Positions 5,271 to 48,853 of a stretch of DNA of 64,000 nucleotides are shown here, in pieces; position 1 is the stretch's first letter, and each line of letters starts with the position of its first letter. This stretch comes from Buxus sempervirens (lineage: Eukaryota > Streptophyta > Magnoliopsida > Buxales > Buxaceae). A program made the translations under genes and the position numbers. The DNA lies in the NCBI GenBank assembly GCA_947561395.2, contig OX387183.1, positions 37,554,901 to 37,618,900 of the forward strand, read 5' to 3'. Below the pieces are notes generated by a model, which saw nothing but the letters and a program-made list of their open reading frames with translations, was not told the origin of the DNA and made no database searches.

Positions 5271-5536
5271 TGTATCCGGCATTATATGCCGGATACACTA
5301 TCCACTGTTCATAGCCGGCTACACATATGTCCCTTTGTATCCGGCATTAAATGCCGGATACAAAACACAATTATTCGAAAATTAAATGCCCCAAAACACA
5401 ATTATTCGAAAATTAAATGCCGCCGCGAATTTGTTGGGCGTCCGGCTCAAATCTCGCTGATTGATCTTCTTGTATCTAATGAATAGTGTCAGTTATACAC
5501 TGAGATATGTGTATCCGACATATTTGGTCGGATACA
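5271..5536. repeat. Promoter-side hairpin cluster of A1
   Basis: Three perfect hairpins. TGTATCCGGC (5271-5280) pairs with GCCGGATACA (5288-5297). TTTGTATCCGGCATT (5334-5348) pairs with AATGCCGGATACAAA (5350-5364), a 15-bp stem around one base. TGTATCCGAC (5510-5519) pairs with GTCGGATACA (5527-5536). The last differs from the others by a matched G-to-A and C-to-T pair in the two arms. A degenerate fourth lies at about 5308-5325. Confidence 0.85.
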
Positions 5537-5689
5537 AATCGAAAAAATTACGGATTTGCCCCTCGACTTGACCGATTCGACCGATTTGACACTTTTGGAT
5601 ATCTACGGATTGCCCCTGTGAATTTTGGTTTAGTCCCTGAGATATTTGATGATTTTTGGATATTTAAGATTTAGTCCCTGAGATATTTT

Positions 5690-8151
5690 TGTAACGCCCC
5701 GGATCCGTGTTGTTCATTAAAGATATAACACGTCTCACGGAGGTTAGGCAAGGATCGTTAATCAATTTATGATCGCTAGATAATCATACATCTATAACCT
5801 AACAGAGTGCACATTCCCATTTATGCAAAATTTCAACATTTAAACTGAACTGAAATTCATATGGTTCATTCCCAATTACTTTAATACATCTCAATTCATT
5901 CAAGTTCTCAAATTCGGAACAGATAACCTACAAGTCTAAGGAAGGTAATAGTAGTCTTCCTCCCTATATGCCTCAGCAGGATCTACCCCAGAAATCGCCT
6001 CACCACGAGTATCTGAAAAAATAGAACAACAACATAGTGAGATACGAATATCTCAGCGAGTAGCACATGCATGCAGAAATAGTTGAATCACATTTTAAAA
6101 CTATGCATCGACAACACTACAATACGTTTAAACAGTCAACATCAATTTCCCAAGTTCAATTCAAACAAATCACATCTCAATTAAATACAATAACGCATCG
6201 ATTCGTCAATGTCATGACTATCGTTTGGTTGATAAATTAAACATGCCAAGTAGACACTCCACACCTCCATGTACACAGTTCCGGCCTACTCAGGGTTTCG
6301 GATACTCTGAAATGACGGCCTACTCAGGGTTTCGTCATCCAATGCAGGCCTACTCCCCGGGTTTCTGCATTGACAACCAGGCCTACTCAGGGTTTCTGGC
6401 TGCTCTACACCGGTCGTGGCAACACACAAGGCCATGCAATTCCAACAACCAACAATAACATCACATTACTAAGCTTAAACATCTGGATCCAGGACAAGCT
6501 AGACCAAAACAGTAAACATCGTATAATCTCGATTTCAATATCAAAACAAACCATTTATTTCCACATCATGTAATTTCTCATCACAGTTCATCACCTGTCC
6601 CTCTGGACCACGCAGTACCCCAAGTACATTCAGTACTTTCTCATTTCCATAACACAAGTCATATGAAAGTAAAACTCAATCCATTCATACCAAAGAAAAC
6701 CATTCAATACGCATAAAGTTTCCAACAAGTGAAACCAGAAATACAAGAACTTCTCAATCAAAGCAGTGTATAGAATAAGGAAAAGTGACTGGTAACTCTT
6801 ACTAGTTCGGTGTCCGGCACAATACTCATAAGTAACCTAAAACCCAACTTGAAACTCATAAGATGTTCACAACATTTTCCTCTATTAATTTTATAGGCAA
6901 AATGGTTTCCCAGGTTCCTAACCAAGTGAATAGTGAAGTGGTTTAACCCCTAAGAAGTGCAATTACTCTTGGTCAAGTCAGAAATTCCATTTCATTAAGC
7001 AAAATAGGTCTACCGCTCACCTACCGAGGTGGGCGCGAGGTGGGCGCCGGTCGGCGGTGAAGAAAACGGTTAAAAACGACCTGCCGCTCACCCGACGCTA
7101 GGTGAGCGCGAGATGGGCGTGAGGTGGGCGTGAGATTCGCGCGAGATGAGCGCCTTGTTTTCCACTTCGCGCGAGATGAGCGTGAGGTGGGCGCGAGATG
7201 GGCGGTAAGTCATTTTTAACAGGGCGCCTACCTCCGAGGTGAACGCCGGTGAGCGCGAGGTAGGCGGATACCCCCGTGATTTTTCATTCTCTGTTATTCC
7301 AAGATCTACAAGTCTGGCCGGTTGGTTTAGGTCTGTAATTGCTCCAATACACTCCTAATACCCCCAGAACACTTCCCAACCATATTTGAAATTAATCTAA
7401 ACACTTTCATTTTTAATTAAAACTTAACTCCGGATACTCTGTTCATGCAACTTTCCGAAAACCCAGAAACCAGAAAACCTTATACTATCACTAAATATTC
7501 AAACATGCATACGAATAAGCTCGATAAAACCCAAAAGACAAACCCAGTGATAAAACAGTGCTACTCACCTGTGCTTCTTCCCGAACGAGAAAACCCCCGG
7601 CCGATCATTTCTCGGCCACGCGCGCGAATGAAAAGACTATCGAACTACACTTCTCGAGCTGAGGGAAATAACCCAAGTAAAATCAGCTCCGAAATCCTTC
7701 TTCCAGCACTTGCGATAGAGGGTTCTTCACGAACGAAAACCCTAGTCGCCCTCCAGCCGAAATCGCCAGTTTCCTTATGTCCAGACTTAACGAAATATTT
7801 GCCGAAATTATGCTAAGCGCAATTTCATAAACCCGAACCCTACTTTCCATTTTCGTCTACTTACCTATTACATGCTCGCTCGAATACTCTCCCATTTCTT
7901 GATCCTATGCATGTTCGCCTACGGAAGACACTACCTATTCAGCATCTATTCCCGTTTAAAATCACATAACTACACCTTAAGAATACCAATGATAATAATA
8001 CTATTTTTCGGAAAAATGGCTATATAACGCCTGTACATATGAGTATGGGCTAAGCCCTCAAACCACAAAATAACCTGATAAACACAGTTTATACATCAGA
8101 ATAAATAACTAAATAAATAAATAAATATTCACAAAAATTCAGGGTCTTACA
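5690..8151 (-). repeat. 3' LTR of the chromovirus
   Basis: 2462 bp, matching 13020-15481 except at five substitutions, with no net indel. It holds a short repeat of CCTACTCAGGGTTTC (about 6290-6400), a TATA-like TATAAAA on the minus strand at 6889-6895, a GC-rich cluster upstream of it (7018-7275) and a small hairpin, TGAGATA (6038-6044) with TATCTCA (6049-6055). Small ORFs here occur in both LTRs and are not genes. Confidence 0.95.
7018..7275. repeat. GC-rich repeat and inverted-repeat cluster in chromovirus LTR
   Basis: Many copies of GCGAGRTGGGCG or GCGAGATGAGCG are interspersed with inverse forms such as CCGCTCACC and GCGCCTACCTC. It lies about 130 bp upstream (sense) of the LTR TATA motif. 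The same cluster is at 14348-14605 in the other LTR, and a related one is in the solo LTR at about 52019-52225. Confidence 0.75.
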
Positions 8152-8163
8152 TCCTCCCCTCCT
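8152..8163 (-). promoter_or_regulatory. Polypurine tract
   Basis: On the minus strand AGGAGGGGAGGA abuts the start of the 3' LTR. This is the expected primer for plus-strand DNA synthesis. Confidence 0.85.
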
Positions 8164-8191
8164 ACAAGAAATTTCGTCCTCGAAATTTACC

Positions 8192-11100
8192 TCAAGAAGG
8201 AGCAAACAATTCCGGATACTTCTTCTTCATCTCTTCCTCACCTTCCCAAGTGCATTCTTCCACAGTATGATTCTGCCATAGCACTTTCACTAAGGGAACA
8301 ACCTTGGTGCGAAGAATCTGCTCACGACGGTCTAGAATCTGAACTGGTCTCTCTTCGTATGTCAGATCTTCTCGGATCACTAAAGGTTCAGGATTTATCA
8401 CGTGACTAGGATCCGCTATGTACTGCCGCAACATGGATACGTGGAATACATCATGGACTCCTGCTAAATGGTTTGGCAAAGCTAGCTTATAAGCTACCGG
8501 GTTAATCACCTTCACAATCTCAAATGGCCCAATAAAACGTGGAGACAACTTCCCTTTCTTCCCGAATCTCAGGATTCCTTTGGAAGGCGATATCTTCAAG
8601 AACACTTGGTCTCCCACTTCAAATTTCAGCTCACGTCGTCGGGTGTCTGAATAACTTTTCTAACGACTCTGTGCAGTCAACAATCGCTGTCTAATCAGTT
8701 TCACCTTTTCCATACTATCTTGTATAATCTCAGGCCCAAAGTACTGTTTCTCTCCTACCTCCACCCAACACACAGGAGATCTACAAATCCTGCCATAAAG
8801 TGCTTCGTAGGGTGCCATCTGTATACTAGCCTGATAGCTATTATTGTAAGCGAATTCGGCTAAGTGTAAATACTTACTCCAATTGCCACCCCAATCCAGG
8901 ACACAACATCTCAACATGTCCTCTAGAGTCTGAATAGTTCTCTCAGACTGGCCGTCGGTCTGTGGGTGGAAACTAGTACTGAAACTTAACTTAGTTCCCA
9001 TGGCCTCCTGGAAACACTGCCAAAAATGTGAGGTAAACCGAGAATCCCTATCCGATACAATGGACACTGGAACCCCATGCAACCGGACTATCTCTCGAGT
9101 ATACAGCTCTACCAATGATGCCAAAGTCTGTGTGGTCTGGTAAGGCAAAAAGTGAGCTGATTTTGTTAGCCTATCCACAATCACCCATACGCCGTTGTGA
9201 TTCTTAGCTGTAGGCGGTAGCCCACTCACAAAATCCATCGATATATGTTCCCATTTCCACTCAGGAACCGGCAAAGGTCGCATCAAACCTGGAGGTCTCC
9301 TATGCTCTGCCTTTACCTGTTGACAAGTGAGGCACTTGGCTACATACTCCGCAATGTCTTTCTTCATTCCTGACCACCAATATACTGATCTTAGGTTCTT
9401 GTACATCTTGGTGCTCCCAGGGTGAATTGCATATTTGGACCTGTGACTCTCGTCTAGGATCAATCCCTTGACTTCAGCATTATTTGGAACACAAGTCCGC
9501 CCTTGAAATTTCACCAATCCATCCCGAACATCAAAATCTTTCGTGGCCTCATCACCCTTCTCTACTAACCCCTTGATGCGTAATAAATCGGGATCTACCA
9601 ACTGACCTTCCCGAATGCTCTGAATCAACTCTGGCTCTGCTTGAACTCGTGCCATAATCAATCCATGCCCATGAGTGCTGAACTCCCCAGGCCATTCTAC
9701 AACAGTATCCACAAGAGTGCACTGACTAGCCATGAAAGTAGCTAGTGTGGCTACCTCATCTTGAGAAACAACTCTACGACTCAGTGCATCTGCTACCACA
9801 TTAGCCTTGCCCGGGTGATAATGTAGTGTGAAATCATAATCCTTTAGAAGATCCATCCATCTCCTTTGCCTCATATTCAACTCTCTCTGGGAAAATATAT
9901 ATCTTAAGCTCTTGTGATCTGAGAATATCTCGAATTTGGCTCCCATCAAATAGTGCCTCCACAACTTAAGTGCAAACACGATCGCTGCCAACTCTAGATC
10001 GTGCGTAGGGTAATTCTTCTCATGAGTGCGTAGCAACCTTGAAGCATAGGCTACCACATGTCTCTGCTACATCAGAACACAGCCCAACCCTACTCGAGAA
10101 GCATCACAATAGATCGAAAATCCCTCACTCACTGATGGCACAATCAAGACTGGAGCTGAAGACAGTTTACCTTTCAACTCCTGAAAACTGTTCTCACACT
10201 TCTCACTCCATTCAAACTTCACTGCCTTTTTAGTGAGATTGGATAGAGGTGCGGCTACTCGTGAGAAATTCTCTATGAATCTCCTGTAATATCCAGCCAT
10301 CCCCAAGAAGCTCCGAATCTCTGTCACAGATGAAGGTCTAGGCCATTCTGCAACAGCCTGCACTTTAGTGGGATCCACGGCTATACCATTTCCAGAAATC
10401 ACGTGTCCCAAGAAACTCACCTCTCTCAACCAGAACTGACACTTGCTGAACTTGGCATACAATCTGTGCTCTCTCAATGTCTGCAATACAGTTCGGAGGT
10501 GCCTTACGTGATCCTCTCTACTTCGAGAATACACTAGGATATCATCGATGAACACAACTACAAAGCTGTCCAAGTGTGTGTGAAACACCCGATTCATCAG
10601 GTTCATGAAAACAGCTGGGGCATTAGTCAGTCCAAAAGGCATAACCCGAAACTCGTAGTGCCCATATCGAGTACGGAATGCCGTCTTCTCTACATCCTCT
10701 GGGGCTACTCTCAACTGGTGGTATCCAGATCTTAGGTCGATCTTAGAAAACCAAGACGCTCCCCTCAACTGGTCGAACAAGTCATCAATCCGAGGCAATG
10801 GATACTTATTCTTGATAGTGACTTGATTCAATTGGCGGTAATCTATACACATCCTCATCGTCCCGTCCTTCTTCTGGACAAACAGGACTGGTGCACCGCA
10901 TGGTGATACACTGGGCCTAATAAAACCCTTTGCTTCCAATTCATCCAACTGTTTCTTCATCTCATGATTTTCAGGTTGTGACATCCTGTATGGTGGTTTG
11001 GATACAGGTGCCGTGCCAGGTAAAAGTCGTATACTGAACTCAACCTCCCTAGGTGGCGGTAATCCCGGTAGATCGTCTGGGAATATGTCATCAAACTCTG

Positions 11101-12865
11101 CTACTATAGGCACACTAGAAAGACTAAGTGTCGTAGACTCTGCCTCCTCAACCTCAATGGATGCTACTAAACTGATCCGTGTCCTCAACCCTTCACATCG
11201 GAAACAGTGCACTGGCTGGTCTGGTTGACATACCATAATGGTACCCCTATAGCAATCTATGCTCACATGATGCCGAAAAAGCCAATCAATACCTATGATC
11301 ACGTCAAATTCCCCGAATTCCAGTTCTACCAAGTCCCCTGGCAACTCCAAAGAACTCAATCTGATCATGCAATCCCTAAACACGGTCTGTACTCTAGTGG
11401 TTTCCCCCAATGGTGTGTGTACAAGTAGCTCGGACTCGAGTGTGGAAGGAACCAAACCAATACGGCATGCACATAAAGGAGTAATGAAAGATCTAGAAGC
11501 ACCCGAATCGAATAAGCATACGGCTGATCTACCATGAATGAAAAGAATACCTCCAACCAACTGTGGCGCCTCTGGCTCCTCCTCACGAGCCTCCTCGACA
11601 TGCCCTCCCTCAGGCTCATCCTCCTGAGCTGCTACTGCGTATACTCTAGTTTGCTGGGGACGTGGGGGTGGTGCCTGCCGTCTCTGAGGTGCCTGCTGCC
11701 TCTGCGGTAACTGCTGCCTCTGGTATCCCCCACTGCTCTGACCCGGAAGTCTCGGTGGTGCTGGAAGTGCTGGCACGGGTCTAGAGTACTGAAATCTCGA
11801 AGCCTCGGCCGGTCGGGTGTCCATAGGTGCAGTAAGGGCTGGCTTGAGTAACTGGTAAGTGTTCGGGTGGGGACAGTCAGCAACCCGATGCCCATGCTGG
11901 CCACATCTAAAACACGCGCCTGGAGGTGACACGCACGGACCTGGGATGTGAAATCGGCCGCAACTGAAACAACCTCCTGAGCCTCTCCTATCCCTCTGTC
12001 CATAGTCGAACCTCGGTCTCTTGTCCCTATCCGGGACCCTCCGTGTCTCTGTGCCACTCGGCTGTGCCCTAACTCTGCTCTGCTCAGTCCCTGAATCTCT
12101 AATCTCTCTCTCAACTCGCAGAGCTCTCCCCACTAAATCTGAATATCTGGTGCACATCAGCACCGAGACCATGCGCCTGATGTCTGCCCTCAGTCCTCTC
12201 TCGAAATGCTGGGTGCGCCTCTGCTCATCATGCACTATATGGTGAGCAAATCGAGAAAGAACCGCAAACCGAGCCTCGTACTGTGCTACGGTCAAGGATC
12301 CCTGAGAGATATCCATGAACTCTCTCTCCTTCTGCAACCTCACCTCTGCAGAAAAATACTGCTCATAAAAGACCTGCCTAAACTGGTCCCAAGTCATCTG
12401 GATCCCATCTACCGCCTGCCTCCGTAACGACTGCCACCAATGCTGTGCCTCGCCCTCTAGGGTGAAGGTAGCCAATCTCACCCTCCGGTCCTCTGGACAG
12501 TCCATCGTATCAAACATGCGCTCAACTCTAGCTACCCAGCTCTCCGCCTCCAACGGATCTGGAACTCCATAAAACGGCGGGGCAGTCAGCTTTCTGAACT
12601 GATCAATGTCCCTCAAGGACAACTCCTCTCTCACCCGCTGCTGATCCACCGCAGCTCCATGACCATTTCGCTGGCCATTACCATTCCCAGTCTGACTCAT
12701 CCTTTCCTCCCTCTCCATCGCAAGGAGGTGGGCAAGCGAGCCAACCGCAGCCCAAATGTCCTCTACTGGTGGTGGGGCTCCCCGTGGTGGTGCAGGTGGC
12801 CGCTCCTGTGGTACATCCCTCTCTGGACAATCCACAGTCCTCGCACGTCTGCCTCTACCGGCCAT
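8192..12865 (-). pseudogene. Chromovirus gag-pol polyprotein, two nonsense codons
   Basis: One continuous frame of 1558 codons starting at the ATG at 12865 (MAGRGRR); an earlier in-frame TTG is less likely. Order: gag core (about residues 90-255), CCHC knuckle with [14 protein letters not shown] (about 319-331), aspartic protease DSGA (about 453), reverse transcriptase with FIDD (about 772-775), RNase H (YCDAS), integrase with an HHCC region (CLTCQQ) and DDE residues ([24 protein letters not shown]), and a chromodomain-like tail (VLWQNHTVEECTWEGEEEM). Two TAG codons interrupt it at 10067-10069 (RNase H) and 8660-8662 (after integrase). Both lie where a Gln CAG is plausible, i.e. single C-to-T changes. 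The frame is otherwise intact. Confidence 0.95.
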
Positions 12866-13000
12866 GTATACCTGTAAGCACAAAATACCACATTAGTTAA
12901 GAACTCTCTTCTAATCCTCATGGTCTTATCTAGCGTACGCACAACATTTCCCCAGGGTTTTCTATGGTCATACTACCTAAACCTCAAATTTTTCCAGCTT

Positions 13001-13015
13001 AAGTCTTTGATACCA
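13001..13015 (-). promoter_or_regulatory. Primer-binding site, tRNA initiator-Met type
   Basis: The minus strand reads TGGTATCAAAGACTT, four bases inside the 5' LTR. TGGTATCA matches the complement of the initiator-Met tRNA 3' end; the next bases depart from the canonical GAGC. Confidence 0.85.
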
Positions 13016-13019
13016 TCTC

Positions 13020-15481
13020 TGTAACGCCCCGGATCCGTGTTGTTCATTAAAGATATAACACGTCTCACGGAGGTTAGGCAAGGATCGTTAATCAATTTAT
13101 GATCGCTGGATAATCATACATCTATAACCTAACAGAGTGCACATTCCCATTTATGCAAAATTTCAACATTTAAACTGAACTGAAATTCATATGGTTCATT
13201 CCCAATTACTTTAATACATCTCAATTCATTCAAGTTCTCAAATTCGGAACAGATAACCTACAAGTCTAAGGAAGGTAATAGTAGTCTTCCTCCCTATATG
13301 CCTCAGCAGGATCTACCCCAGAAATCGCCTCACCACGAGTATCTGAAAAAATAGAACAACAACATAGTGAGATACGAATATCTCAGCGAGTAGCACATGC
13401 ATGCAGAAATAGTTGAATCACATTTTAAAACTATGCAACGACAACACTACAATACGTTTAAACAGTCAACATCAATTTCCCAAGTTCAATTCAAACAAAT
13501 CACATCTCAATTAAATACAATAACGCATCGATTCGTCAATGTCATGACTATCGTTTGGTTGATAAATTAAACATGCCAAGTAGACACTCCACACCTCCAT
13601 GTACACAGTTCCGGCCTACTCAGGGTTTCGGATACTCTGAAATGACGGCCTACTCAGGGTTTCGTCATCCAATGCAGGCCTACTCCCCGGGTTTCTGCAT
13701 TGACAACCAGGCCTACTCAGGGTTTCTGGCTGCTCTACACCGGTCGTGGCAACACACAAGGCCATGCAATTCCAACAACCAACAATAACATCACATTACT
13801 AAGCTTAAACATCTGGATCCAGGACAAGCTAGACCAAAACAGTAAACATCGTATAATCTCGATTTCAATATCAAAACAAACCATTTATTTCCACATCATG
13901 TAATTTCTCATCACAGTTCATCACCTGTCCCTCTGGACCACGCAGTACCCCAAGTACATTCAGTACTTTCTCATTTCCATAACACAAGTCATATGAAAGT
14001 AAAACTCAATCCATTCATACCAAAGAAAACCATTCAATACGCATAAAGTTTCCAACAAGTGAAACCAGAAATACAAGAACTTCTCAATCAAAGCAGTGTA
14101 TAGAATAAGGAAAAGTGACTGGTAACTCTTACTAGTTCGGTGTCCGGCACAATACTCATAAGTAACCTAAAACCCAACTTGAAACTCATAAGATGTTCAC
14201 AACATTTTCCTCTATTAATTTTATAGGCAAAATGGTTTCCCAGGTTCCTAACCAAGTGAATAGTGAAGTGGTTTAACCCCTAAGAAGTGCAATTACTCTT
14301 GGTCAAGTCAGAAATTCCATTTCATTAAGCAAAATAGGTCTACCGCTCACCTACCGAGGTGGGCGCGAGGTGGGCGCCGGTCGGCGGTGAAGAAAACGGT
14401 TAAAAACGACCTGCCGCTCACCCGACGCTAGGTGAGCGCGAGATGGGCGTGAGGTGGGCGTGAGATTCGCGCGAGATGAGCGCCTTGTTTTCCACTTCGC
14501 GCGAGATGAGCGCGAGGTGGGCGCGAGATGGGCGGTAAGTCATTTTTAACAGGGCGCCTACCTCCGAGGTGAACGCCGGTGAACGCGAGGTAGGCGGATA
14601 CCCCCGTGATTTTTCATTCTCTGTTATTCCAAGATCTACAAGTCTGGCCGGTTGGTTTAGGTCTGTAATTGCTCCAATACACTCCTAATACCCCCAGAAC
14701 ACTTCCCAACCATATTTGAAATTAATCTAAACACTTTCATTTTTAATTAAAACTTAACTCCGGATACTCTGTTCATGCAACTTTCCGAAAACCCAGAAAC
14801 CAGAAAACCTTATACTATCACTAAATATTCAAACATGCATACGAATAAGCTCGATAAAACCCAAAAGACAAACCCAGTGATAAAACAGTGCTACTCACCT
14901 GTGCTTCTTCCCGAACGAGAAAACCCCCGGCCGATCACTTCTCGGCCACGCGCGCGAATGAAAAGACTATCGAACTACACTTCTCGAGCTGAGGGAAATA
15001 ACCCAAGTAAAATCAGCTCCGAAATCCTTCTTCCAGCACTTGCGATAGAGGGTTCTTCACGAACGAAAACCCTAGTCGCCCTCCAGCCGAAATCGCCAGT
15101 TTCCTTATGTCCAGACTTAACGAAATATTTGCCGAAATTATGCTAAGCGCAATTTCATAAACCCGAACCCTACTTTCCATTTTCGTCTACTTACCTATTA
15201 CATGCTCGCTCGAATACTCTCCCATTTCTTGATCCTATGCATGTTCGCCTACGGAAGACACTACCTATTCAGCATCTATTCCCGTTTAAAATCACATAAC
15301 TACACCTTAAGAATACCAATGATAATAATACTATTTTTCGGAAAAATGGCTATATAACGCCTGTACATATGAGTATGGGCTAAGCCCTCAAACCACAAAA
15401 TAACCTGATAAACACAGTTTATACATCAGAATAAATAACTAAATAAATAAATAAATATTCACAAAAATTCAGGGTCTTACA
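13020..15481 (-). repeat. 5' LTR of the chromovirus
   Basis: 2462 bp, the partner of 5690-8151. It has the TATA-like motif (minus, 14219-14225) from which transcription of gag-pol would start, the GC-rich cluster at 14348-14605 and the TGAGATA hairpin at 13368-13385. Confidence 0.95.
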
Positions 15482-15563
15482 ATTTTGCTGCATTCATCGC
15501 CACGTGCGCAGTTTCTTCACCACGTGTGCAGTTTCAGGTTTTGCTGCACGGAAACTTCGACAA
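15482..15563 (-). mobile_element. Giant-LTR family A, copy A1, right remnant
   Basis: It resumes A1 after the chromovirus. GCCACGTGYGCAG and the GGAAACTTCGACA block match A3 near 37080 and A5 near 46735. The sense 5' terminus (TGTAAGCACC) and about 0.5 kb expected beside it are missing. The next base returns to the tandem repeat that flanks A1 at 2308, suggesting a deletion between array units. Confidence 0.7.
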
Positions 15564-15565
15564 AA

Positions 15566-17871: not shown

Positions 17872-17874
17872 GCG

Positions 17875-21195: not shown

Positions 21196-21197
21196 TT

Positions 21198-22729: not shown

Positions 22730-23451
22730 TGTAAGCACCCAAATTTTGATCAAACCAAAAAATGTGCTAAAAGTAGCAAAACAGGTCAAACCTTAGGGTG
22801 CAAAAATTGACTTTTTGATCAAGCTCAAATTGACTGCCATGCTTCATCCCAATGGATAGGAAATCTCGACATGATTCTAACGCAATTGAGTTTGCCAAAA
22901 TCGGAGTCCAGATGGAGGAGTTATGGGCAGATCAAGTCCCGCGGGAGCAGAAATTGACTTTTTGCTCAAACCCAGATTAACTGCCATTTCTGTCCCAAAA
23001 GAAAGGAAATGCCGACACGATTCTGACGCAATTGAATTTGCCAGAATCGGGGTTCGGATCAGGGAGATAAGAGCAGATTAAGATTTCGGACATGGGTTTC
23101 GGCTTTCTGCAAAAAACTTGAATTCGCTGTAGAACTCTGTCCCGGTGGGTAGAAAATCTCGACTCGATTCCAACGCAATTGAGTTTGCCAGAATCTGAGC
23201 TCAGATGAAAGAATTATGAGCAGTTCAAGCCCTAGGGCAAAACCACAGAAAACTGCCCACGTGGCGAAGAAAGGACAGTAAATGGAAATATCTCAAATAA
23301 AATATTAATTTTTAGGAAAATATCTTGTTTTTTCGAATTAAATTAAATAGAAAATCAAGAGCAAATCTAGTCAAATCAGGGGCAAATCAGGAAAAAAATC
23401 ATTTTTTACAAAAAGATCCGAAAATATATGTCGGATACAAATACTTTTATG

Positions 23452-23640
23452 TGTATCCGAAATATAATTTCGGATACAGGATAAGGTTCTCGGATTTTTT
23501 GTCAGGATTTCCTGACATTATCCCAGCGAAGAAATGATTGCTGTCGAATTTTCTTGTATCCGAAATTATATTTCGGATACAATTACATATATATATTTTG
23601 GATACACTATGTAGTGTATTCGACCTGAGTTGTCGGATAT
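23452..23640. repeat. Promoter-side hairpin cluster of A2
   Basis: TGTATCCGAAAT (23452-23463) pairs with ATTTCGGATACA (23467-23478), a 12-bp perfect stem. TTGTATCCGAAAT (23554-23566) pairs with ATTTCGGATACAA (23570-23582), 13 bp. A third, GTATTCGAC...GTCGGATA, lies at about 23615-23639. A further half, TGTCGGATACA, is at about 23429. Confidence 0.85.
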
Positions 23641-23652
23641 AAAAATTTTGCC

Positions 23653-23660: not shown

Positions 23661-24041
23661 GAAACAGCAGCCTCTTGGCTTGGGGTTGGTTGGTTTTAGC
23701 TCTCCCCTCTCCCCTCTCTCCTCTACCCTGCTCATTCACCTCTCTTACACCTCCTCACTTACTCACAAGCCCTCAACCCCATCCAAACCCCATCAAACCA
23801 CCTCCCCACCTCTTCTCCTTCAACTCCAACAAGGAAGGAACACTTGAAAAACCACTTGGAGCTCAAGAGGAGGACTCCACTTGCTGTCCAGGCTTCAAAG
23901 GATCTCCAAGCACACCAAGGAGGCTCTCCCTCCCCCAAGGTAAGCTCTCCTACTGTAGACACCCCAAATTGCACTAGGAAAATGATGAATTCACTTTATC
24001 CTTTGTAACCAGCACAAAATTTCAGATTGAAATATTCCTCA

Positions 24042-24187
24042 TTGTATCCGACACAAGTCATCGGATACAAGCAAGCTTTTTGTATATCCGACACAAGTCA
24101 TCGGATACAAGCAAGTATTATTGTATCCGACGACATGTGTCGAATATAAATATGTTCCCTTATATCCGACCTGAGTTGTCGGATACA
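24042..24187. repeat. Four-hairpin cluster in the family D LTR
   Basis: TTGTATCCGA (24042-24051) pairs with TCGGATACAA (24061-24070). A near copy is at about 24082-24110, a decayed one at 24121-24148, and TATATCCGAC...GTCGGATACA at 24161-24187. The same stem type occurs in the neighbouring family A element. Confidence 0.8.
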
Positions 24188-27243: not shown

Positions 27244-27347
27244 CTTGACTGACAACTCAGGTCGGTCAAGCAGGTTTTTTAATGTATTCGAAATCATATT
27301 TCGGACACACTTATTTTAAGTGTATCCGAAATATAATTCCGGATACA
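27244..27347. repeat. Distal hairpin cluster of A2
   Basis: CTTGACTGAC (27244) faces GTCGGTCAAG with one mismatch. TGTATTCGAAAT (27283) faces ATTTCGGACACA. TGTATCCGAAAT (27321) faces ATTCCGGATACA. The stem family is the one used in A2's promoter-side cluster 4 kb away. Confidence 0.8.
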
Positions 27348-35250: not shown

Positions 35251-35392
35251 TGTAGCCGGCCTGAGATGCCGGTTACACACATAAGTTAGTGTATCCGGCC
35301 TTCTTTGCCGGTTATAAACAGACCTCAGTGTATCCGGCATTTGTTGCCGGCTACACACATGACTCTGTTGATCCGGCCTGAGTTGCCGGATC
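35251..35392. repeat. Distal hairpin cluster of A3
   Basis: TGTAGCCGGC (35251-35260) faces GCCGGTTACA (35268-35277). GTATCCGGC (about 35291) faces GCCGGTTATA. TGTATCCGGC (35329-35338) faces GCCGGCTACA (35346-35355). GATCCGGC (35370-35377) pairs perfectly with GCCGGATC (35385-35392). Confidence 0.8.
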
Positions 35393-36700
35393 ACCATACA
35401 GAGTCTAATTTTTTGGATTTTTTCAATGGGGTTGGTTTCTTGGGTCTCCTAGGATGTTCTGGGGGTCGTGTGGGCCCCTGTGTGGGCCCACAGTGGTTCC
35501 AAAATAGAGAAGAATGAGCTTCTCTTTAGGGAAAACTAAGAGGATGGGAGGAGGTTAGGGATTTGCCTCCTCTCTCTAAACCAAATCAACACACAAACAG
35601 GGACTCAAGTGTCCCTGTTTTGGTTCCCTTCCTTCTTCTAAGAACCCACCATTACTTTACATAGAAAAAGCGAAACGAGGCATCCATAAGCATGTTCAAG
35701 TCACAACAAAACTGAAGAACAAGGTAGGCCATTAAGAGTTAAAAAAAAACAAGTTCTCCGTGCATGCAAATCATATTAAGCAGTAGCACATGTATGGTAC
35801 CTAGATATGCTTCTAATGAATGAAAAAATAAGCATGCTTACGAAGCCGGCACAAGGCCGAATGGGCTGGTTTTTTCATGACCCGAAATAATGACTAACAA
35901 GACAAAATCATGATTAACACATACAAAACAGCAAATAAGATGGGATACTCACATGATCCTAAAGAGGGCAAAACATATATTTTAGACAATAATCAATCCG
36001 TGCCTGCGTACGACAATAACTAGGCCTTATGTGAATAAACAAATAGAGGATACACTTAGCATGCATCAGGTGCTATATTCATCATCCTACCCACATACAT
36101 CATCCATTCATCCTAAAAAGGAAGCACTTGAAGAAGGGAAGAGGGGGGTTACTCGTGGGGTACATTAGACGATTAATCAAGACGGACAAACTCCCACTTT
36201 AAATGAAACAAATTAATAGACCAAAAGAACCATTAAGAGCATCTTATATGTTACCCTCTTCCTCCCTCGGAGACATGCTTGAAATGGTAAGACATGCTTG
36301 AAATGGGGAAGACAAAATAGAGAAAGAAAAGGCAAGACATGCTTGAAATGGTAAGAAACACATGGTTGAAAACACATGCTCATATGGAGCTCATTTTTAT
36401 ATATTATGAACAAAATACCATGGGGAACATTACCTTGGGGCCTTGTGACCTTCGAGTGGTGTGCTCACCCTTTCTTGAAGCTTGAACACCGCTGGAACAC
36501 CACCTTCAAGGCACCACCAGCAGCTCCTTTGAGTTTCTTCTTGGGTGGAGATGAAGAAGGCAAAGAGAGAAGAGGGCTTTGGGAGAGAGCAAGAGAAGGA
36601 GAGTCTTGGGAGAGAGCAAGAGAGCTTGGGGGAGATGGGGGATCAAAACAAAAATCAGCCCAACACAATGAGCCGACCCCCCTTTGTGCTAGGGTTTTTT

Positions 36701-36710: not shown

Positions 36711-36812
36711 AGAATGACCAAAAGTCAATTACTTTTCCCTTTCACAACCAAAACCTTAACCCTTTTTCATTTGTGCCCTTTTTTAAAGAAAACTCATGAT
36801 TGCATTCTTTTC

Positions 36813-36880
36813 TTAGCCTCCAAGTAAACTTGGAGGCTAAGTTTGCTTGGACGAATTCTCCACATGGAGAATTCGTCCAA
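36813..36880. repeat. Promoter-side hairpins of A3, unrelated stems
   Basis: TTAGCCTCCAAG (36813-36824) pairs with CTTGGAGGCTAA (36829-36840), 12 bp. TTGGACGAATTCTCCA (36847-36862) pairs with TGGAGAATTCGTCCAA (36865-36880), 16 bp around two bases. They sit where A1, A2 and A4 carry TATCCG hairpins, but the sequence is different. Confidence 0.9.
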
Positions 36881-37891: not shown

Positions 37892-38720
37892 CAGTTCACT
37901 TCAATTGGGGGTAGTGAACTAGTGTTCACCTCAATTTGGGGGTAGTGAACTGGCTCCTTCTCCAAAGTGATATCGGCTAGTAAAATGTATGGTTCACCTC
38001 AATTGTGGGTAGTGAACTAGTGTTCACCTCAATTTGGGGGTAGTGAACTAGCTTCCTTATAAAAGTGGGTATTGGTAAGTAAAATGTATGGTTCACCTCA
38101 ATTGGGGGTAGTGAACTAGTGTTTACCTCAATTTAGGGGTAGTGAACTGGCTTCTTCTCAAGGTGATTATTGGTAAGTAAAATGTGTTGTTCACCTCAAT
38201 TGGGGGTAGTGAACTAGTGTTCATCTCAATTTAGGGGTAGTGAACTAGCTTCTTCATAACAGTTGATATTAGTTAGTAGTATGTGATGTTCACCTCAATT
38301 GGGGGTAGTGAACTAGTGTTCACCTCAATTTGGGGGTAGTGAAATAGCCTTTTCATAAAAGTGAGTATTGGTAGGTAACATGTGCAGTTCACCTCAATTG
38401 GGGTAGCGAACTAGTGTTCACCTCAATTTGGGGGTAGTGAACTGTTTCCTTCTCAACAGCGATTATTGGTCAGTAGTATGTATGGTTCACCTCAATTGGG
38501 GGTAGTGAACTATTGTTCACCTCAATTTAGGGGTAGTGAACTAATTCCTTCATAAAAATGAATATTGGTTGATTACTTAGTATGTGCTGTTCACCTCAAT
38601 TTGGGGGTAGTGAACTAGTTCTGCTACAACAGTAAATATGGAATTTTAGAGTGAGAGGTACACCTCATTTGAGGTCGTAAACTATGGTTCACAATGGCTG
38701 GGGGTAGTGAACTAGCATCC
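37892..38720. repeat. Tandem array of about 98-bp units with internal dyads
   Basis: Unit starts are near 37893, 37992, 38091, 38189, 38288, 38387, 38484 and 38589 (period 97-105). Most units hold two copies of a dyad in which GTTCAC and GTGAAC face each other across CTCAATTGGGGGTA or its close variant. The last units decay. Located in the 3' half of LTR B1. Confidence 0.9.
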
Positions 38721-38939
38721 CCCGTATAAGCTAGGAAATCTGAGGGGTCAAGTATGATAAATTAATGATTTATGATTGTATGAATAGTTGACCTGTACAC
38801 CTATGCACATGCATGCACTTGTTAAATGACACTATGTTGCCGTTGTTTCTACAATATTTCAACTAGCCACATCTCATGGTTTTATCGAGAGATAGTTGCA
38901 TAAACTGTGTTTTCACCAAATCATGCATGTGTTGCTTAC

Positions 38940-38955
38940 TGAGACATTCGTCTCA
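38940..38955. repeat. Small conserved LTR hairpin
   Basis: TGAGAC pairs with GTCTCA around ATTC. The chromovirus LTRs carry TGAGATA/TATCTCA at the comparable place. Confidence 0.6.
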
Positions 38956-39465
38956 CAGTTGCTTCTTATCTTGTTTTTCAGATCCATCGTCGTCCGGTGT
39001 GAAGGACCGGGTTGGGGAATAGAGGCGAGGAGAAAGCCTTTGGGTGTTGAGAGGCAAATGTCTTTAGGCCTTAGGTTTATTTCTTGTTTGTACATGTATA
39101 GTTTATTTTGGATTGTACACCTTGTATTTTGAGAGGAGTGATGTAGTCACCCGTCGTTTTGTAATCAAACTCGTGTCTTATTACATTTCTTTTATATATA
39201 TAGAAACCACTTTTGATATGCACAGCATAAATTGTCTTATCACTTGCACTTGTTAGGAAAAAGTTTTAATTCCTTTGTGTTTTATCAAGTAGAATGGCCC
39301 ACTTGCCATAGTCTGGAACGGGTTGTGCCTTGGAGGGGCAGACCTAGTTCTGGGTTGTGACATTAAGTGTACCTAAAGTACCTCATAAGAAACCGAAAGT
39401 AACTCCTAAGTATACCCAAGGTACCTCTTAAGTGTATCTAAAGTACCTTCAAAGTATACCCAGGG

Positions 39466-40883: not shown

Positions 40884-41481
40884 TGTAAGCACCTCATTTT
40901 TGAGCTCCCGGAAGAGCCAGAAATGCAAAACCTGGCTAAAAAGTCAAACCCTGAGGGGTCAAAAATTGACTTTTTGATCAAGTGAAAATTGGCCACCTTG
41001 CTTTATCTCAATGGATAGAGAATCCTGACACGAGTCCAACGCAATTGAGTTTGCTGGAATCGAAGTCCGGATAAAGGTTCTACAAGCCGGTCAAACTTAA
41101 AGGGGAGCAAAAAGTTGAATTTTTGCCGAACCCCGTGCTAGGTTCTTAGCCCTATGACATTGGATAGAGAGCTCCGATACAGTTCTAACGCAACTAAGTT
41201 TGCTCAAATCGGAGTTCGGATGAAGGAGATATGAGCTGTTGAAGTTTCCGAGCAGCAAAACCAGAAACTGCACACGTGGCAAAGAAACTGGGCACGTGGC
41301 AACAAATGCAGTAAAATATCTCAGGGACTAAATCTCAAATATCCAAAAATTGTCAAATATTTCAGGGGCTAAACCAAAATTCGCAAGAGGCAATCTGTAG
41401 ATATCCAAAAGTGTCAAATCGGTCGAATTGGTTAAGTAGAGGGGCAAATCCGTAATTTTTTGATTTTTATATTACCAAATA

Positions 41482-41714
41482 TGTCGGATACACATACCTT
41501 TGTGTATATCTGACACTATTCATCGGATACAAGGAGATCAGCTAGCGAGATTTGCGCCGATTCACCGACAATTTCGCGGTGACATTAAATTTTGCAAATT
41601 ATGATGTTTTGTATCCAATATAAAATATCGGATACACTGTGGGCTTAGTGTAGCCGACCTTGTAGGTCGGATACACATGGCCTCTAGTGCATCCGGCCTC
41701 CAAGGCCAGATACA
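41482..41714. repeat. Promoter-side hairpin cluster of A4
   Basis: TGTCGGATACACA (41482) faces TGTGTATATCTGACA with a bulge. GTATCCAATAT...ATATCGGATAC is at 41610-41636. TGTAGCCGACC (41649-41659) faces GGTCGGATACA (41665-41675) with one mismatch. A decayed TGCATCCGGCC...GGCCAGATACA is at about 41688-41713. Confidence 0.75.
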
Positions 41715-41725
41715 TTAAGTTGGGC

Positions 41726-41733
41726 TATAAAAG
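41726..41733 (+). promoter_or_regulatory. TATA box of A4
   Basis: TATAAAAG about 12 bp after the hairpins, inside a small GGGCTATAAAAGCCC palindrome. Confidence 0.65.
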
Positions 41734-43852: not shown

Positions 43853-43919
43853 GGTGATCCGACAACTCAGGTCGGATCACCTAGGACTTGTGTGTAGCCG
43901 ACAAGTAATGTCGGCTACA
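43853..43919. repeat. Distal hairpins of A4
   Basis: GGTGATCCGAC (43853-43863) pairs with GTCGGATCACC (43871-43881), 11 bp. TGTAGCCGAC (43893-43902) pairs with GTCGGCTACA (43910-43919), 10 bp. Relative to TGTATCCGAC/GTCGGATACA the second has a T-A pair replaced by G-C. Confidence 0.9.
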
Positions 43920-45264
43920 TGGCAGAAATGCCAATCTTGGGTTTTTCCGATTCTTGTCGAATTTGAATGATATTTCCACCAAACCAAGTAAACCAATAGG
44001 GTTTCCGGGTCACCCGAAAACCCCACATGGGACCTGGACCGCCGGTCCAATTTGGTACATTAGTGGGCCTTCCAATGGGGCCCACCAAGCCCGATAAACA
44101 CTAAAGCACACTGTGCGCGCGTTGGAAACGCGGCACGAGAAAATTCGGAGTCGCCACCGCCTGATGGGGTGCAGGCGGACACCTGGGTGCCTAATCTTGT
44201 CTATTAAGGCTTTGGTCTGCGGCTTTGAGATTCTAAGTAGGGTTTCGGTTGTGGTCCGGGGAAGTCCGTAGACACCCCGGTCCACCCCGTCGGGTGACGG
44301 GTCCCTTAGGTTTATCCTGGTTTGAGTCAGCTTACTTTGGTCTCACCCAATTCCTAATCCGATATGTAGCTTGGTTAAGCCTGGCGGGACCACCTGAGTG
44401 GTGTGGGTCCCTTTAATTGCTTTTATCTTGATTAATTAGGTAATCTGAGTCTGGTTGGGTGGGCCCCGTTGGAAGGCCCATGGTGTCCTTGGTGGGCTTA
44501 GTCTAGCCCATTTACCCTTGTGGGCCTCTGTCTAGGCTAGAGGCCCTTTGGGCTTTGGTTAAGTGAATGGATTTTACATTAGGGTTCAGATTTTGAAGCT
44601 TAGGTGATTTTCATGCTAAAGGTAGGCCTGTATTAGTTTGCGGGCCTCTGGATGGGCCCCCATGATGGTTGCCAAAAGTGCTTTAGATTTATCTTGTTAA
44701 GTTTGCCAAAGTGAGTTGGACACTGGGCTTGGGGCCCGTAGTCCAAATTTGGGCTTGAAAGCACAGGTTATGTGAAGTTAGGGTTTTGAACCCTTACTTG
44801 GTTGGTTCGTGGGCTTTGGCGGGCCCGATAGGCCCTTGCCTTTAGTCTTGGCCAAACCACACATTTCATACATCAATTCACCAAGTTTGGTTCTGGTGGG
44901 CTGCTTTTGGGGTTTGGCCCGCCCGGGTTGATCAGTTAATTTACTTATCTTGATTATGTCACATGTATGTATTCCATTGTGTTCATTGGGCTTGGTGGGC
45001 CCCGTTGGAAGGCCCACTGGAAATCAAGTTGGACTGGGGGTCCAAGTCCCATGTTGGGCTTCCAGGTGACCCGGAAACCCTATTGGTTCATTTGGTTTGG
45101 TTTGGAAATGCCACCCACATCCAGAAAAAATCACAGGAAATATCACAGAGAACATACAAAAAAAATGACATTCATCAGAGGAGATCGGCTCACTATACTG
45201 GGTCCAAGGAAGGGCATTTTTGCGTTTCCAAAAAATATAGCAATTCGGCATTTTTTAAGAGGGT

Positions 45265-45292
45265 GCGCTGACCTCAAGCGCTAGGTCAGCGC
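45265..45292. repeat. Distal hairpin of A5, unrelated stem
   Basis: GCGCTGACCT (45265-45274) pairs with AGGTCAGCGC (45283-45292), 10 bp, at the place where A1 and A3 have TGTATCCGG hairpins. Confidence 0.85.
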
Positions 45293-46445
45293 GAGCCTGG
45301 TGGAACCGGAAAGGCCCTTGCGAGCAAAAGTGCCAGCTCGGTGGACACCTTGCCGAAACCCGATTCTCTGTTTTTTTTCTTTTTCTCAAAGTCTGGCTTG
45401 ATTTTCAGTCTCTGTAACACCTCCCAGGTGTTACTAACATCCCCAGGAGACACTTGAACATGCATCGAAGCTATTCTAACCTACTTCAAAATTAATCTAA
45501 CTTTACAGAGTCATGATTTACACTTCCAACAGCAAACAAAGAAGGGGGATGGGGGCATGCTTGACTCCTACGACAGTAACCAAATAAACGGGAGATAAAA
45601 CAGAGAGGCTACATGCATAAGAAGGGGAACCGGACCTAAATCTAAACATGCATTTAACCTTACCTTATAACACTTGCAAACAAGGGAGAAGAAACGAAAA
45701 AAGAAAAGAAAAGCACCAGTAGAAAGAAAAACAGTCATGCCAGAAGAAAAAAAAGAACACGGCAACATGTCTAAGCTTGCATCTCCATGGAGCCCCTAAC
45801 CGGAACTAAACCTAACCTCCGCATTCGCATCAATAAACCTTCAGGGAAAGGAGAGAGAGGGGGGGTTTACAGGGGTACACAGGACATGTTCGAAGCGAGG
45901 GAACAGGCTCCCTTTACTGCATGATCCACAAAAAAAAACTCTCCGAACAGTGGCCTTGGTGGCCTAAGGTGGGATGGCCAAGCTTCCCATCTTCTCATGG
46001 AGTCTCATGGGGGCTCCGTTACCCTCGGAGACCTCCGTGTTACCAAAAATATAAGAACATGCATGGCATAACAAGGAAAGAAAACAGATTTGATAACATG
46101 CGCATACGACTCCCATTTTCATGTATGTAAAATAAAAAGGAGTGAGGAACAATACCTGAGGTTCCCTACGCTCTTGTGCGAGGCGGCGGCTTTTCCTTGA
46201 GATGACACAGGTGCCGGAACTCCCTTCTTCTGAACCTCCAACAGCATCCCTTCTTTTCTTTGGACCTTGGTGCGATGGTGGAGAAGAAGAAGAGGAAAAG
46301 GAGTGATAACGGCGGGTGGGGTGTTTGGGGGGCTAAGGAGTAAATGGGAGCTGGGGAGAGGAGGTTCCCGGAAATTGAAAGCCAACTGAAGAAAGCTTTT
46401 CTCCAAAAAAAAATTTCTGAACCCTTTGCACGAAGTATGGTGCGT

Positions 46446-46516
46446 CTTTTATAGAAAGAGGGATCGGGTATCCGCTGGGTTGGCACCTGGCTGGCACCGA
46501 GCGCGTTTTGCGCTCG
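46446..46516 (-). promoter_or_regulatory. A5 TATA box with adjacent hairpin
   Basis: CTATAAAAG on the minus strand (46446-46454). Upstream in sense, CGAGCGC (46498-46504) pairs with GCGCTCG (46510-46516). A5's distal hairpin has a related GCGCT core. Confidence 0.55.
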
Positions 46517-47771
46517 CCCCGCTCGCGCGAGAGGCAAAATGATGAAAAAACAATAAATGCGGCCGCTAATTGGTTGGAAAATCTGATTTTTTGGATTTAG
46601 TCCCTGGATATTTTCAATTTAATCCGATATTTTTGGATTTTTACAGATTTAGTCCCTGGGATATTTCGTACGTTTGGATATTCACGGATTTGATCCCCGA
46701 GATATTTTCCTGCGCAACTCGCCACGTGTGTAGCTTTTTGCCACGTGTGCAATTTGCCAGTTTTGCTGCTTGGAAACTTCAACAGCTCATATTCTCTCCG
46801 TTCGGACTCCGATTTGGGCAAACTCAGTTGCGTCGGACTCGTGTCAGGATTCTCTATCCAATGACATAGGGGTAACCATCTGGATCGGGGTTCAGCAGAA
46901 AGTCAACTTTCGGCTCCCCTAAAGTTTGATCGCCCGCAGAACCTTCATCCGGACTCCGATTCCTGCAAACTCAGTTGTGTTGGAACCGTGTCGGGATTCT
47001 CTATCCAATGATATAGGGGTGTGCGCACCTAAAAATGGCCTAGATCGCACACGAAGCGCACGTGGAGGGTTTGTGCATGCCTCGGGACATTCGGAGTCGC
47101 CACTGCCTGAGAGGTGCAGGCAGACACGGTGATTGCCCTATTCGGGTCTAAGTCTGGTCTGCGGCTTTTCAGAGTTCTAGATAAGTCCTTGGTTACGTCC
47201 GGGGAAGTCCGAAGACACCCCGGCCCGCCCCGTCGGTTTGACGGGTCCCTCGGGTCTCCCTGGTTTTTGAGTCAATCTCACCCTTCCTAGACCAGCACGA
47301 TGTTTATTGGGTCTGGCGGGGCCCTCTGAAGGTGTGGGTCCCTTTTACTTTGATTTTATCTTCTTATTTAGTGGAATGGGTCGGACCCGGGTCCCGTTGG
47401 AAGACCCGTGGGTTGCCATGATTGGGCTTGGGGCCCAGTTGGGTTATTGGGTAACTCGTTTGGTTATTTAAATTTTATTTATTTACAATTTATTTGGGCT
47501 TAATGGGCTTGGTACGGGCCCATTAGCCAAGGGTCAAGGGGCCTGGGCCTGTTTATTGAAAACAGGCCTGGTATAGGCCAGTCGAAGGTGGGCCACCCAA
47601 GTGGGCCCAAGGTGCCTTGGTGGGCCTATTTAGGTCCGCAGTCCATTATTGGGTTGAAAATAGCCCAAAATGTCTAAAAGGTCGGTTCAAGCCGGTTCAG
47701 GTCGGATCAAGTCCAACCGGGCCAAAAAGTAGGTTTTTAAAGTTATATTTACACTGGCCTGTGTTTATTAT

Positions 47772-47833
47772 ACGGGTTGCCATTGCCCGTAAATGAAATT
47801 TGGTTCAAGCTCGCCCGTGAAGCAAATACGGGC
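47772..47833. repeat. Distal hairpins of A6
   Basis: ACGGG...CCCGT (47772-47790) and GCCCGT...ACGGGC (47812-47833), the stem type of A6's promoter-side cluster. Confidence 0.7.
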
Positions 47834-48617
47834 ATGCTTGAACCGTTCTGAGTTTACGGGCTCAACCAACTTTGCATATTTGGTGCCGATTCAGCTTGGG
47901 ATCAGTTTGATTAATTTCCTGGGGCTTTCAACAACCTTCGTCAAACTTCCAGCATCCCCGTGATTCTCCATTCCCTCCATTTGGCTTAAAAAAGCCATCC
48001 TTCTCCTCTTTTGCATTTTCCAAGCAAGTATAGCTTCCTTTTAACCATTTGTGATCATTGCTAAGAAGGGAATAAGAGGGAGATTACAGGGAATATCAGA
48101 TATTTAAAGAAGTTCCAGGATTGTAACCAAATTAGGTAGGGTATTATTCTTTTGATAACCCTTGATTATTCTCTCCTCCTTTTCATGGAAATGACCACTT
48201 TGGATCAAGTTGCTCACCGCATACAGCAGCCAAAACATGTTAGAAACGACATAATGAAAATAAAATAAAAAGAAAGTAAGTGAAGAAGAAAGAAAAAGTA
48301 ACTAAAACTTACTTAATTCAGTGAGCATACTTACAATGTAATTTCTAATTGATTTTGATGATTCCTCCAATTCCGAGTGAATTCGGTAGCGCTTCCGCGT
48401 CCCCTTGAGTTTCCAAATTGGGTTTTGAAAGGGCTTGGCTGGGTTTCCTATGTTCAAATGGTGATCAAACAGGGTTTAGACAGAGTTTGGGCAATGCAGG
48501 GGCATTTCGGGGATTTTTGGAATTAGGAATTGGAGGTGGTAGAACCTGGGTAGGGTTTTGGCTCTGCAAAACACACAGACGGAGAGGGGAGAGGCCAAGA
48601 GGAAGGCTTGTTCGAAT

Positions 48618-48635
48618 GGGGGGGGGGGGGGGGGG
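48618..48635 (+). repeat. Poly-G tract, 18 bases
   Basis: An uninterrupted G run within A6, just downstream (sense) of its TATA, so the transcript would carry C. Confidence 0.9.
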
Positions 48636-48643
48636 CTGGCCTC

Positions 48644-48654
48644 TCTATTTATAG
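48644..48654 (-). promoter_or_regulatory. TATA box of A6
   Basis: Minus strand CTATAAATAG next to the hairpins at 48668-48853. Confidence 0.6.
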
Positions 48655-48667
48655 GCAAAAATGTCGT

Positions 48668-48853
48668 GCCCGTACTTCAAGTACGGGCGTGCCTTGCCCG
48701 TAATTCAAATACGGGCGAAAAACGCACATTTCCAAATCTCGCAAAATCGGCCGTACGGGACGCGTGTCCCGCCGTACAGCGACACGCGCCCCCTTCTAGA
48801 AGCTTGCCCGTATTTGAAATACGGGCATGCCTTGCCCGTATTTTAAATACGGT
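48668..48853. repeat. Promoter-side hairpin cluster of A6
   Basis: GCCCGTACTT pairs with AAGTACGGGC (48668-48688). GCCCGTA pairs with TACGGGC (48696-48716). GCCCGTATTT pairs with AAATACGGGC (48806-48826). A slightly decayed copy is at 48834-48853. The first and third differ by a paired C-G to T-A change. Confidence 0.9.

Follow-up and report, generated by a model that had tools for sequence, protein, structure and literature searches.

Phased 27-bp dyads in the long terminal repeats of Tat-like Ty3 retrotransposons of Buxus sempervirens as probable sites for a dimeric DNA-binding protein

Palindromes in the long terminal repeats (LTRs) of plant retrotransposons have so far been discussed largely as small-RNA hairpins or as untested cis-elements, to judge from the accessible parts of the literature. 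The closest described case is that of the Sireviruses, a Ty1/copia lineage whose RM boxes are palindromic, based on CCG/CGG and clustered upstream of the LTR TATA box, with extra copies before env; regulation by these boxes was proposed, not tested, in the portion of the report available (PMC2829016). Here we describe arrays of a 27-bp dyad in a window of 64,000 nucleotides from Buxus sempervirens (assembly GCA_947561395.2, contig OX387183.1, forward-strand positions 37,554,901 to 37,618,900), searched for throughout the 676.5-Mb genome with reversed patterns as the control. An earlier note on this DNA had reported clusters of hairpins in LTRs, with arms that change together, and knew of no described function for them; that last statement needs qualifying, as boxes upstream of TATA were already on record in Sireviruses with the regulatory proposal just mentioned. 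We conclude that the arrays are related in kind to the Sirevirus boxes, and that what is new is another retrotransposon lineage and a much stricter geometry. The dyads are probably phased operator or upstream activating sequence (UAS) sites for a putative dimeric DNA-binding protein, rather than RNA or cruciform hairpins.

How close is the likeness to the Sirevirus boxes? As far as the accessible text of that report goes, both systems place multiple palindromes in the LTR ahead of TATA and extra copies 5' of an accessory gene, which is a plant-mobile-domain (PMD) gene here and env there. They differ in three respects. First, the hosts here are Tat-like Ty3/gypsy elements, not Ty1/copia. Second, the dyad is CCG-N11-CGG with a strict length of 27 bp, whereas the Sirevirus boxes follow CGG-N4-6-CCG by our reading of Table 3 of PMC2829016, with the Sirevirus Tnd-1 described there as having no CGG-CCG core. 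Third, the dyads have 39- or 28-bp phasing and a recurring distance to TATA. Membership in the Sireviruses is ruled out on lineage and geometry. The palindrome-rich cis regions of maize Sirevirus LTRs are reportedly small-RNA hotspots, a finding ascribed to Bousios et al. in 2016. Those palindromes share with the present dyads an LTR cis-region location, the capacity to form hairpins and quick evolution, so far as partial sources tell, but the pattern of change here favours a DNA site. In maize, hairpins are concentrated in copia LTRs and Ty3 elements generally have no obvious peak, according to the part of PMC10760457 available. A literature search of similarly partial depth yielded no recognised description of CCG-N11-CGG arrays in Ty3 LTRs.

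All the hairpins quoted in the earlier note are present in the window where it had placed them, and the window has 33 perfect hairpins with an arm of at least 10 and a loop of 3–40, compared with 2–4 in five local shuffles. The quoted examples are not variable hairpins, however. Aligned from the outside, all prove to be the same thing, a dyad of constant 27-bp length, NNNNN-CCG-N11-CGG-NNNNN. The TGTA-type examples at 5271, 5336, 5510, 23452, 23555, 24043, 43854 and 43893 each measure 27 bp around a CCG-N11-CGG core, and their “stems” and “loops” vary in length because the centre is palindromic to differing extents. The same core is found in the “A6” hairpins with GCCCGTATTT at 48.7–48.85 kb. 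When the window is scanned for CCG-Ng-CGG with g from 3 to 35, at least four of the five outer pairs are complementary in 16 of 27 occurrences at g = 11, against 7 of 166 across the 32 remaining gap sizes (sums ours).

The same dyad is abundant across the genome. Class 1, TGTATCCG-N{3,30}-CGGATACA, has 24,001 matches, versus 12 for the reversed control. Fixed 27-bp class-1 patterns whose positions 9 and 19 read G-C, A-T or G-T/A-C account for 14,723 + 6,031 + 2,906 = 23,660 of these, so at least 98.6% share the 27-bp length. Class 2, GCCCGTA-N{3,30}-TACGGGC, has 11,323 matches versus 89, and a G-C variant of class 1, TGTAGCCG..CGGCTACA, has 1,079 versus 3. About 100 matches were listed for each search, all from contig C1; among them, every class-1 match and every G-C variant is 27 bp long, and every class-2 match is 21 bp, which is CCG-N11-CGG again. 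Hairpins with variable loops are ruled out, given that searches allowing gaps of 3–30 show a single gap among the matches listed. A CGG-N9-CCG reading is also possible for the G-form of class 1 only. Another 27-bp dyad, which differs in its arms (AGTTTCCG-N11-CGGAAACT or similar), lies ~223 bp from the family A array (L003:2004, L004:2011, L006:1337 and L007:1341 in stretches fetched from the genome).

The dyads are phased with respect to one another. With 60 exact seeds at C1 loci as starting points, complementary pairs per 27-mer peak only at offsets of −78, −39, +39, +78 and +117 (4.8–7.2 pairs over a background of 3.3, standard deviation 0.44), some of the neighbours being seeds themselves; 46 of the 99 distinct neighbours at ±39 have a CCG/CGG core. 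The period is 39 bp in class 1 (TGTATCCG) and 27–28 bp in class 2 (GCCCGTA). Periods of 39 and 28 bp differ by 11 bp, or about one helical turn, so rotational phase would be nearly equal in the two classes. Spacers differ freely in sequence between families and mostly keep their 12-bp length. Arrays are also positioned with respect to TATA, in two layouts. One is a split array (2+3 dyads, to which class 2 adds 2+2 and 2+4) in which TATA starts 10–12, usually 11, bp past the last dyad. The other is a run of four dyads with TATA 150–200 bp further on. The distance to a C(C)TATA match is 9–10 bp in 34 of 51 array-TATA pairs. By our count these 34 comprise 26 family A copies and 8 others, two of which are promoters of PMD2, an antisense gene of the retrotransposon E1. 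Two further pairs lie at other distances. Among the class-2 loci fetched, the distance is 9–10 bp in 6 of 6 with the split layout, as it is in L073 and L075, and 195–206 bp in 3 of 10 without it. The dyads and TATA boxes of the window are as follows; E1 is the element at C1:3.680–3.702 Mb treated further below.

3330..3356, unstranded: single class-1 dyad with one mismatch.
5253..5259, minus strand: TATA box, 11 bp past D1 in the sense direction.
5271..5297, minus strand: class-1 dyad D1 adjoining that TATA box in a family A LTR, with an exact 16/16 outer match.
5336..5362, minus strand: class-1 dyad D3; this copy has lost part of D2, the middle dyad lying between D1 and D3.
5471..5497, minus strand: decayed class-1 dyad D4, 39 bp from D5.
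5510..5536, minus strand: class-1 dyad D5.
23413..23641, plus strand: class-1 array with dyads at 23413, 23452, 23555 and 23615, then TATA at ~23653.
24043..24187, plus strand: class-1 array of four dyads in an E1-type LTR (start TGTAGACACCCC near 23954), with TATA at ~24355.
27283..27347, unstranded: two class-1 dyads, 38 bp apart.
35251..35394, unstranded: four class-1 dyads with a 39-bp period.
41466..41714, plus strand: class-1 2+3 array, with dyads at 41466 (decayed) and 41505, then 41610, 41649 and 41688; TATA at ~41726.
43854..43919, unstranded: two class-1 variant dyads, GTGATCCG..CGGATCAC and TGTAGCCG..CGGCTACA, 39 bp apart.
47754..47864, plus strand: decayed class-2 dyads at 47754, 47810 and 47838.
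48646..48653, minus strand: TATA box, 11 bp past the last class-2 dyad.
48665..48857, minus strand: class-2 array GCCCGTA-N7-TACGGGC with dyads at 48665, 48693, 48803 and 48831, 28-bp period.

Another array of four dyads occurs to the left of the window (flanking pieces L076 and L077). The family A LTR in the window is interrupted at 5690–15481 by a young minus-strand Ty3 element with a chromodomain, whose own LTRs at 5690–8151 and 13020–15481 are 99.8% identical.

Do the two arms of a dyad change together, as the earlier note had it? Between lineages they do. With the outer arms fixed, pair 9-19 is G-C in 14,723 and A-T in 6,031 genome matches and is mismatched (G-T or A-C) in 1,415 + 1,491 = 2,906, against ~10,200 mismatches expected under independence by our arithmetic. 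Pair 5-23 is T-A in 24,001, G-C in 1,079 and mismatched in 537 + 524 = 1,061, and only ~99 G-C pairs are expected under independence; between lineages, the paired change from T-A to G-C that had been picked out in the window is real. These genome counts are no test by themselves because the copies are related by descent. Among 181 distinct dyads, 155 match at pair 9-19 and 124 at 10-18, compared with 96 and 80 in shuffles, none of 2,000 of which equalled either figure; there is no excess at pairs 11-17, 12-16 and 13-15. The result is similar for 47 representatives that differ from one another at three or more inner positions (36 and 30, versus 24 and 17), with 0 and 1 of 2,000 shuffles reaching the observed values at 9-19 and 10-18 and no clear excess further in. 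Since matching stops past pair 10-18, each side of the dyad has 10 symmetric bp, around a 7-bp centre.

Within families, the picture is different. Taking every pair whose majority state is complementary, 28 family A copies (of 40 scored places) show 106 single-arm changes against 1 paired change in 1,431 cells, where independence predicts 2.0 double changes; CpG transitions make up 45 of the 108 substitutions. The 19 PMD2 promoters have 14 single and 0 paired changes in 608 cells, after 152 cells in which the majority is not paired were dropped. Inserted or dead copies lose their arms one side at a time, so the arms are not regenerated there, and the active regeneration that the note had also entertained is not supported. 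The same counts bear on the possibility that template switching or gene conversion within a dyad rewrites one arm from the other, making the symmetry mutational rather than selected. Such a mechanism has been reported, to go by part of PMC8794818; two dyads have centres that are reverse-complemented relative to their relatives (L062 D1, and L034/L035 near 111 versus L020); and matching is stronger within dyads than within arrays. However, the one-sided decay of arms in family A and in the PMD2 promoters largely rules this process out in inserted copies, and it leaves the 27-bp length, the phasing and the distance to TATA unexplained. We consider template switching a very improbable source of the symmetry.

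Could the dyads instead act as RNA? Read-through or antisense transcripts of the LTR might fold into hairpins with 10-bp stems and 7-nt loops that feed small-RNA silencing or bind protein, a role that has been suggested for the palindromes of maize Sireviruses. The stems are long enough, arrays downstream of TATA would be transcribed, and the palindromes of Sireviruses are reported as hotspots of small RNAs (Bousios 2016, cited in the accessible parts of PMC10760457 and PMC5311732). The array lies just upstream of TATA in 34 of the 51 pairs, however, and the 7-bp centre is of fixed length and has no pairing excess. Sense-strand mismatches show no preference for G.U (50, versus 78 A.C), although the 78 A.C mismatches would read as G.U on antisense RNA. 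The fixed phasing of 39 or 28 bp is on the scale of DNA. A structured RNA should show more compensatory than single changes in homologous copies, and the counts are 1 versus 106 and 0 versus 14. A scan of the window with Rfam gave no family at gathering score, which also counts against RNA hairpins. The RNA fold suggested in the earlier note is accordingly not borne out, and RNA hairpins seem to us quite unlikely.

The arms are conserved relative to their surroundings. In the 28 family A copies, non-CpG change amounts to 0.024 for the arms (11 columns per side), 0.057 for the centres (5 columns) and 0.100 for spacers and flanks, a four-fold difference between arms and flanks, and CpG change is equal at 0.091 and 0.089. 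The non-CpG deficit together with equal CpG change indicates that arms are constrained in active lineages and later decay like the rest. This speaks against neutral, satellite-like amplification, in which an old tandem duplication of a 39-bp unit would have hitchhiked with successful LTRs: spacers diverge freely while arms hold, and a like layout recurs with other sequence and a 28-bp period. The regular period and the shared descent of copies within families are what such amplification would give, yet we rate it as highly improbable. By contrast, the binding-site reading is supported by the fixed length, the phased arrays, the recurring distance to TATA and the constrained arms, and with it the earlier suggestion of a protein-site dyad under selection.

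Half-sites also agree beyond the single dyad. In a sample of 41 arrays with 147 dyads, the dinucleotide at positions 9-10 agrees at a frequency of 0.65 when the two sides of one dyad are compared, 0.48 when dyads in the same array are compared and 0.23 when the comparison is between arrays. Much of the matching thus belongs to the array as a whole, which is what a single factor reading every site would be expected to produce. Between a class-1 and a class-2 element, the reverse transcriptase/RNase H (RT/RH) is 91% identical over 350 amino acids (aa) and gag-pol DNA is 74% identical, and the LTR and leader arrays of these relatives differ in dyad class and period. Two half-site codes, TGTATCCGRN and TTGCCCGTA, thus occupy corresponding LTR and leader positions of related elements.

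What would such sites do? A symmetric dimer could read the two 10-bp half-sites, with adjacent dimers sitting at a fixed helical phase. Together with the nearby TATA box, the complex would activate transcription; repression seems less likely. Paired differences between lineages would then mirror the half-site preference of the cognate factor and would arise via mismatched intermediates.

Several observations weigh against phased protein-binding sites as the explanation, or at least against its simplest form. First, concerted change on one branch is weak. On a tree of arrays of the E1 type, just 6 of the 40 changes at pairs 9-10 coincide, where slid and cross-dyad controls give 0–4; at pairs 1-8 the figure is 1 of 41. 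The tree holds 18 of 25 arrays (three with fewer than four dyads and four second LTRs of one element were excluded), and many of its forks are weak. The tree-aware check thus gives a weak excess of paired change; it tells against a strict compensatory reading, and paired states probably arose mostly via mismatched intermediates. Second, matching within dyads exceeds matching within arrays (0 of 5,000 within-array shuffles reach the observed value), which a single fixed specificity does not predict. Third, constraint is modest in the PMD2 promoters, at 0.030 in arms versus 0.045. Fourth, the distance of 11 bp to TATA is not universal. Some arrays sit downstream of TATA; 15 of the 51 array-TATA pairs are 152–176 bp apart, at least one of these TATA matches being an AT run on the other strand; and in 7 of the 10 class-2 loci without the split layout there is no TATA within reach of the short stretches.

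The hosts of the arrays are Tat-like Ty3/gypsy retrotransposons. A second, archaeal-type RNase H in a Ty3 pol is the mark of this group. The LTRs of E1 are 2,287 bp long and 99.6% identical, its gag is PF03732 with a G-patch, and its pol pieces are RVT_1, RT_RNaseH, a second RNase H (RVT_3, PF13456) and an rve integrase, in Ty3 order. Class-2 elements have a PF03732 gag, and one has RVT_1 and RVT_3. It is the second RNase H in the pol pieces that marks both E1 and this class-2 element as Tat-like. A type-A element (L078) has long gag and pol frames, with a pol 73% identical to that of E1 over 561 aa. Between the LTR and gag, arrays of the two classes occupy corresponding positions (L113:661-771 and L030:1002-1106). 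Tandemly repeated units of ~147–150 bp flank E1 on either side (L025:1668-3128 and L032:3540-4500). In another class-2 element (L074, C1:8112001-8119500), gag is present and the stretch read has no pol frame of at least 110 aa beside it, so this element is likely non-autonomous.

Antisense open reading frames (ORFs) near the 3' end of E1 match PMD and DUF7745. Their location is as follows.

L031:2649-7570 (C1:3693149-3698070), minus strand: two antisense PMD/DUF7745 genes with dyads before each.

Arrays in E1 are found in the promoter region of both LTRs, upstream of gag, upstream of PMD2 and ~1.1 kb upstream of PMD1. PMD2 has a clear TATA and ATG, and PMD1 probably has a leader intron. We looked at 20 PMD2 loci, 18 picked from the 150 best-scoring copies and 2 others. 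Nineteen have four dyads at 38–39 bp and TATA 11 bp on, and the twentieth (L088) has one dyad in the stretch fetched. All 150 scored places, the best 150 of 7,760 candidates, hold relatives of the PMD2 ORF at E ≤ 1.4e-111, and by our count 132 of these copies have no internal stop. Against the public protein set, the PMD2 ORF had 217 candidates and none at E 0.001. Ty3 elements of the Retand/Grande/RIRE2 type likewise carry antisense ORFs between pol and the 3' LTR, for which a regulatory role was suggested, and the Grande accessory gene is transcribed from its own promoter, according to the title of a reference cited there (accessible part of PMC11963269). Antisense ORFs near the 3' end are thus common to E1 and these elements; arrays of dyads at promoters are present in E1 and are not described for Retand-type elements in that part of PMC11963269. 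Transposase_28 (PF04195), which would indicate the Retand lineage, was absent from six E1 ORFs scanned at E 0.01, and PMD and DUF7745 were found instead.

Which protein might read the sites? One candidate is a retrotransposon-encoded protein, most plausibly the antisense PMD/DUF7745 product, for which the dyads would be operators. This self-regulation fits the presence of dyads upstream of both PMD genes of E1, one of them with TATA, the constancy of the four dyads in PMD2 promoters, the many PMD2 copies free of stops, half-site codes that differ in concert between close relatives, and the suggested role of antisense Retand ORFs (PMC11963269, in part). On the other side, a Pfam scan gave no PMD match in five antisense frames of L078 or in five frames taken from L113 and L114, and none was seen by eye in the ORF lists of L074, L078, L113 and L114, all of whose interiors are incomplete; in L113, ~1.5 kb before the 3' LTR lies outside the stretch read. 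The accessory gene of the family A element in the window was sought in the left flank (L076, L077) and none was recognised; each piece has one frame of at least 120 aa, neither resembling a retrotransposon gene by eye. As judged from these sequences, self-regulation is a serious possibility, if an unlikely one. A broader version would be an element-run regulon, in which a self-encoded antisense PMD-type dimer reads a family-specific 27-bp operator before the promoters of the element, and rivals escape or capture the regulator by switching all operators at once, from code TGTATCCG to GCCCGTA and from a phase of 39 to 28 bp; we regard this as doubtful. The factor is probably host-encoded, because several array-bearing elements have no accessory gene in the stretches read, and this would be the least certain step in the proposed mechanism.

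Two other systems offer partial parallels for a factor of this kind. VANDAL transposons encode VANC proteins, and these bind to short motifs in the elements themselves. There, too, a transposon family has an expanding, family-specific motif read in trans; VANDALs, however, are DNA transposons, and the factor here is only putative. NAC/VOZ transcription factors bind as dimers to palindromes with N7 spacing, with half-sites CTT-N7-AAG and GCGT-N7-ACGC. The 7-bp centre is a point of likeness, but these half-sites do not match CCGRN or CCGTA.

What is the significance of these arrays? First, the geometry (27-bp length, 7-bp centre, 39/28-bp phase and ~11 bp to TATA) points to a DNA-binding dimer, as does the decay of single arms in dead copies set against matched half-sites between lineages. 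Second, geometry and half-site matching together give a readable operator code. Third, one code recurs in the LTR and ahead of the antisense accessory genes, and the role of these genes and of the putative factor can therefore be tested with one probe.

Two other features of the window may be recorded. A tandem array of ~98–99-bp units lies at 37894–38720. At 56188–59070, on the minus strand, there are long frames whose translation, judged by eye, resembles a Helitron helicase.

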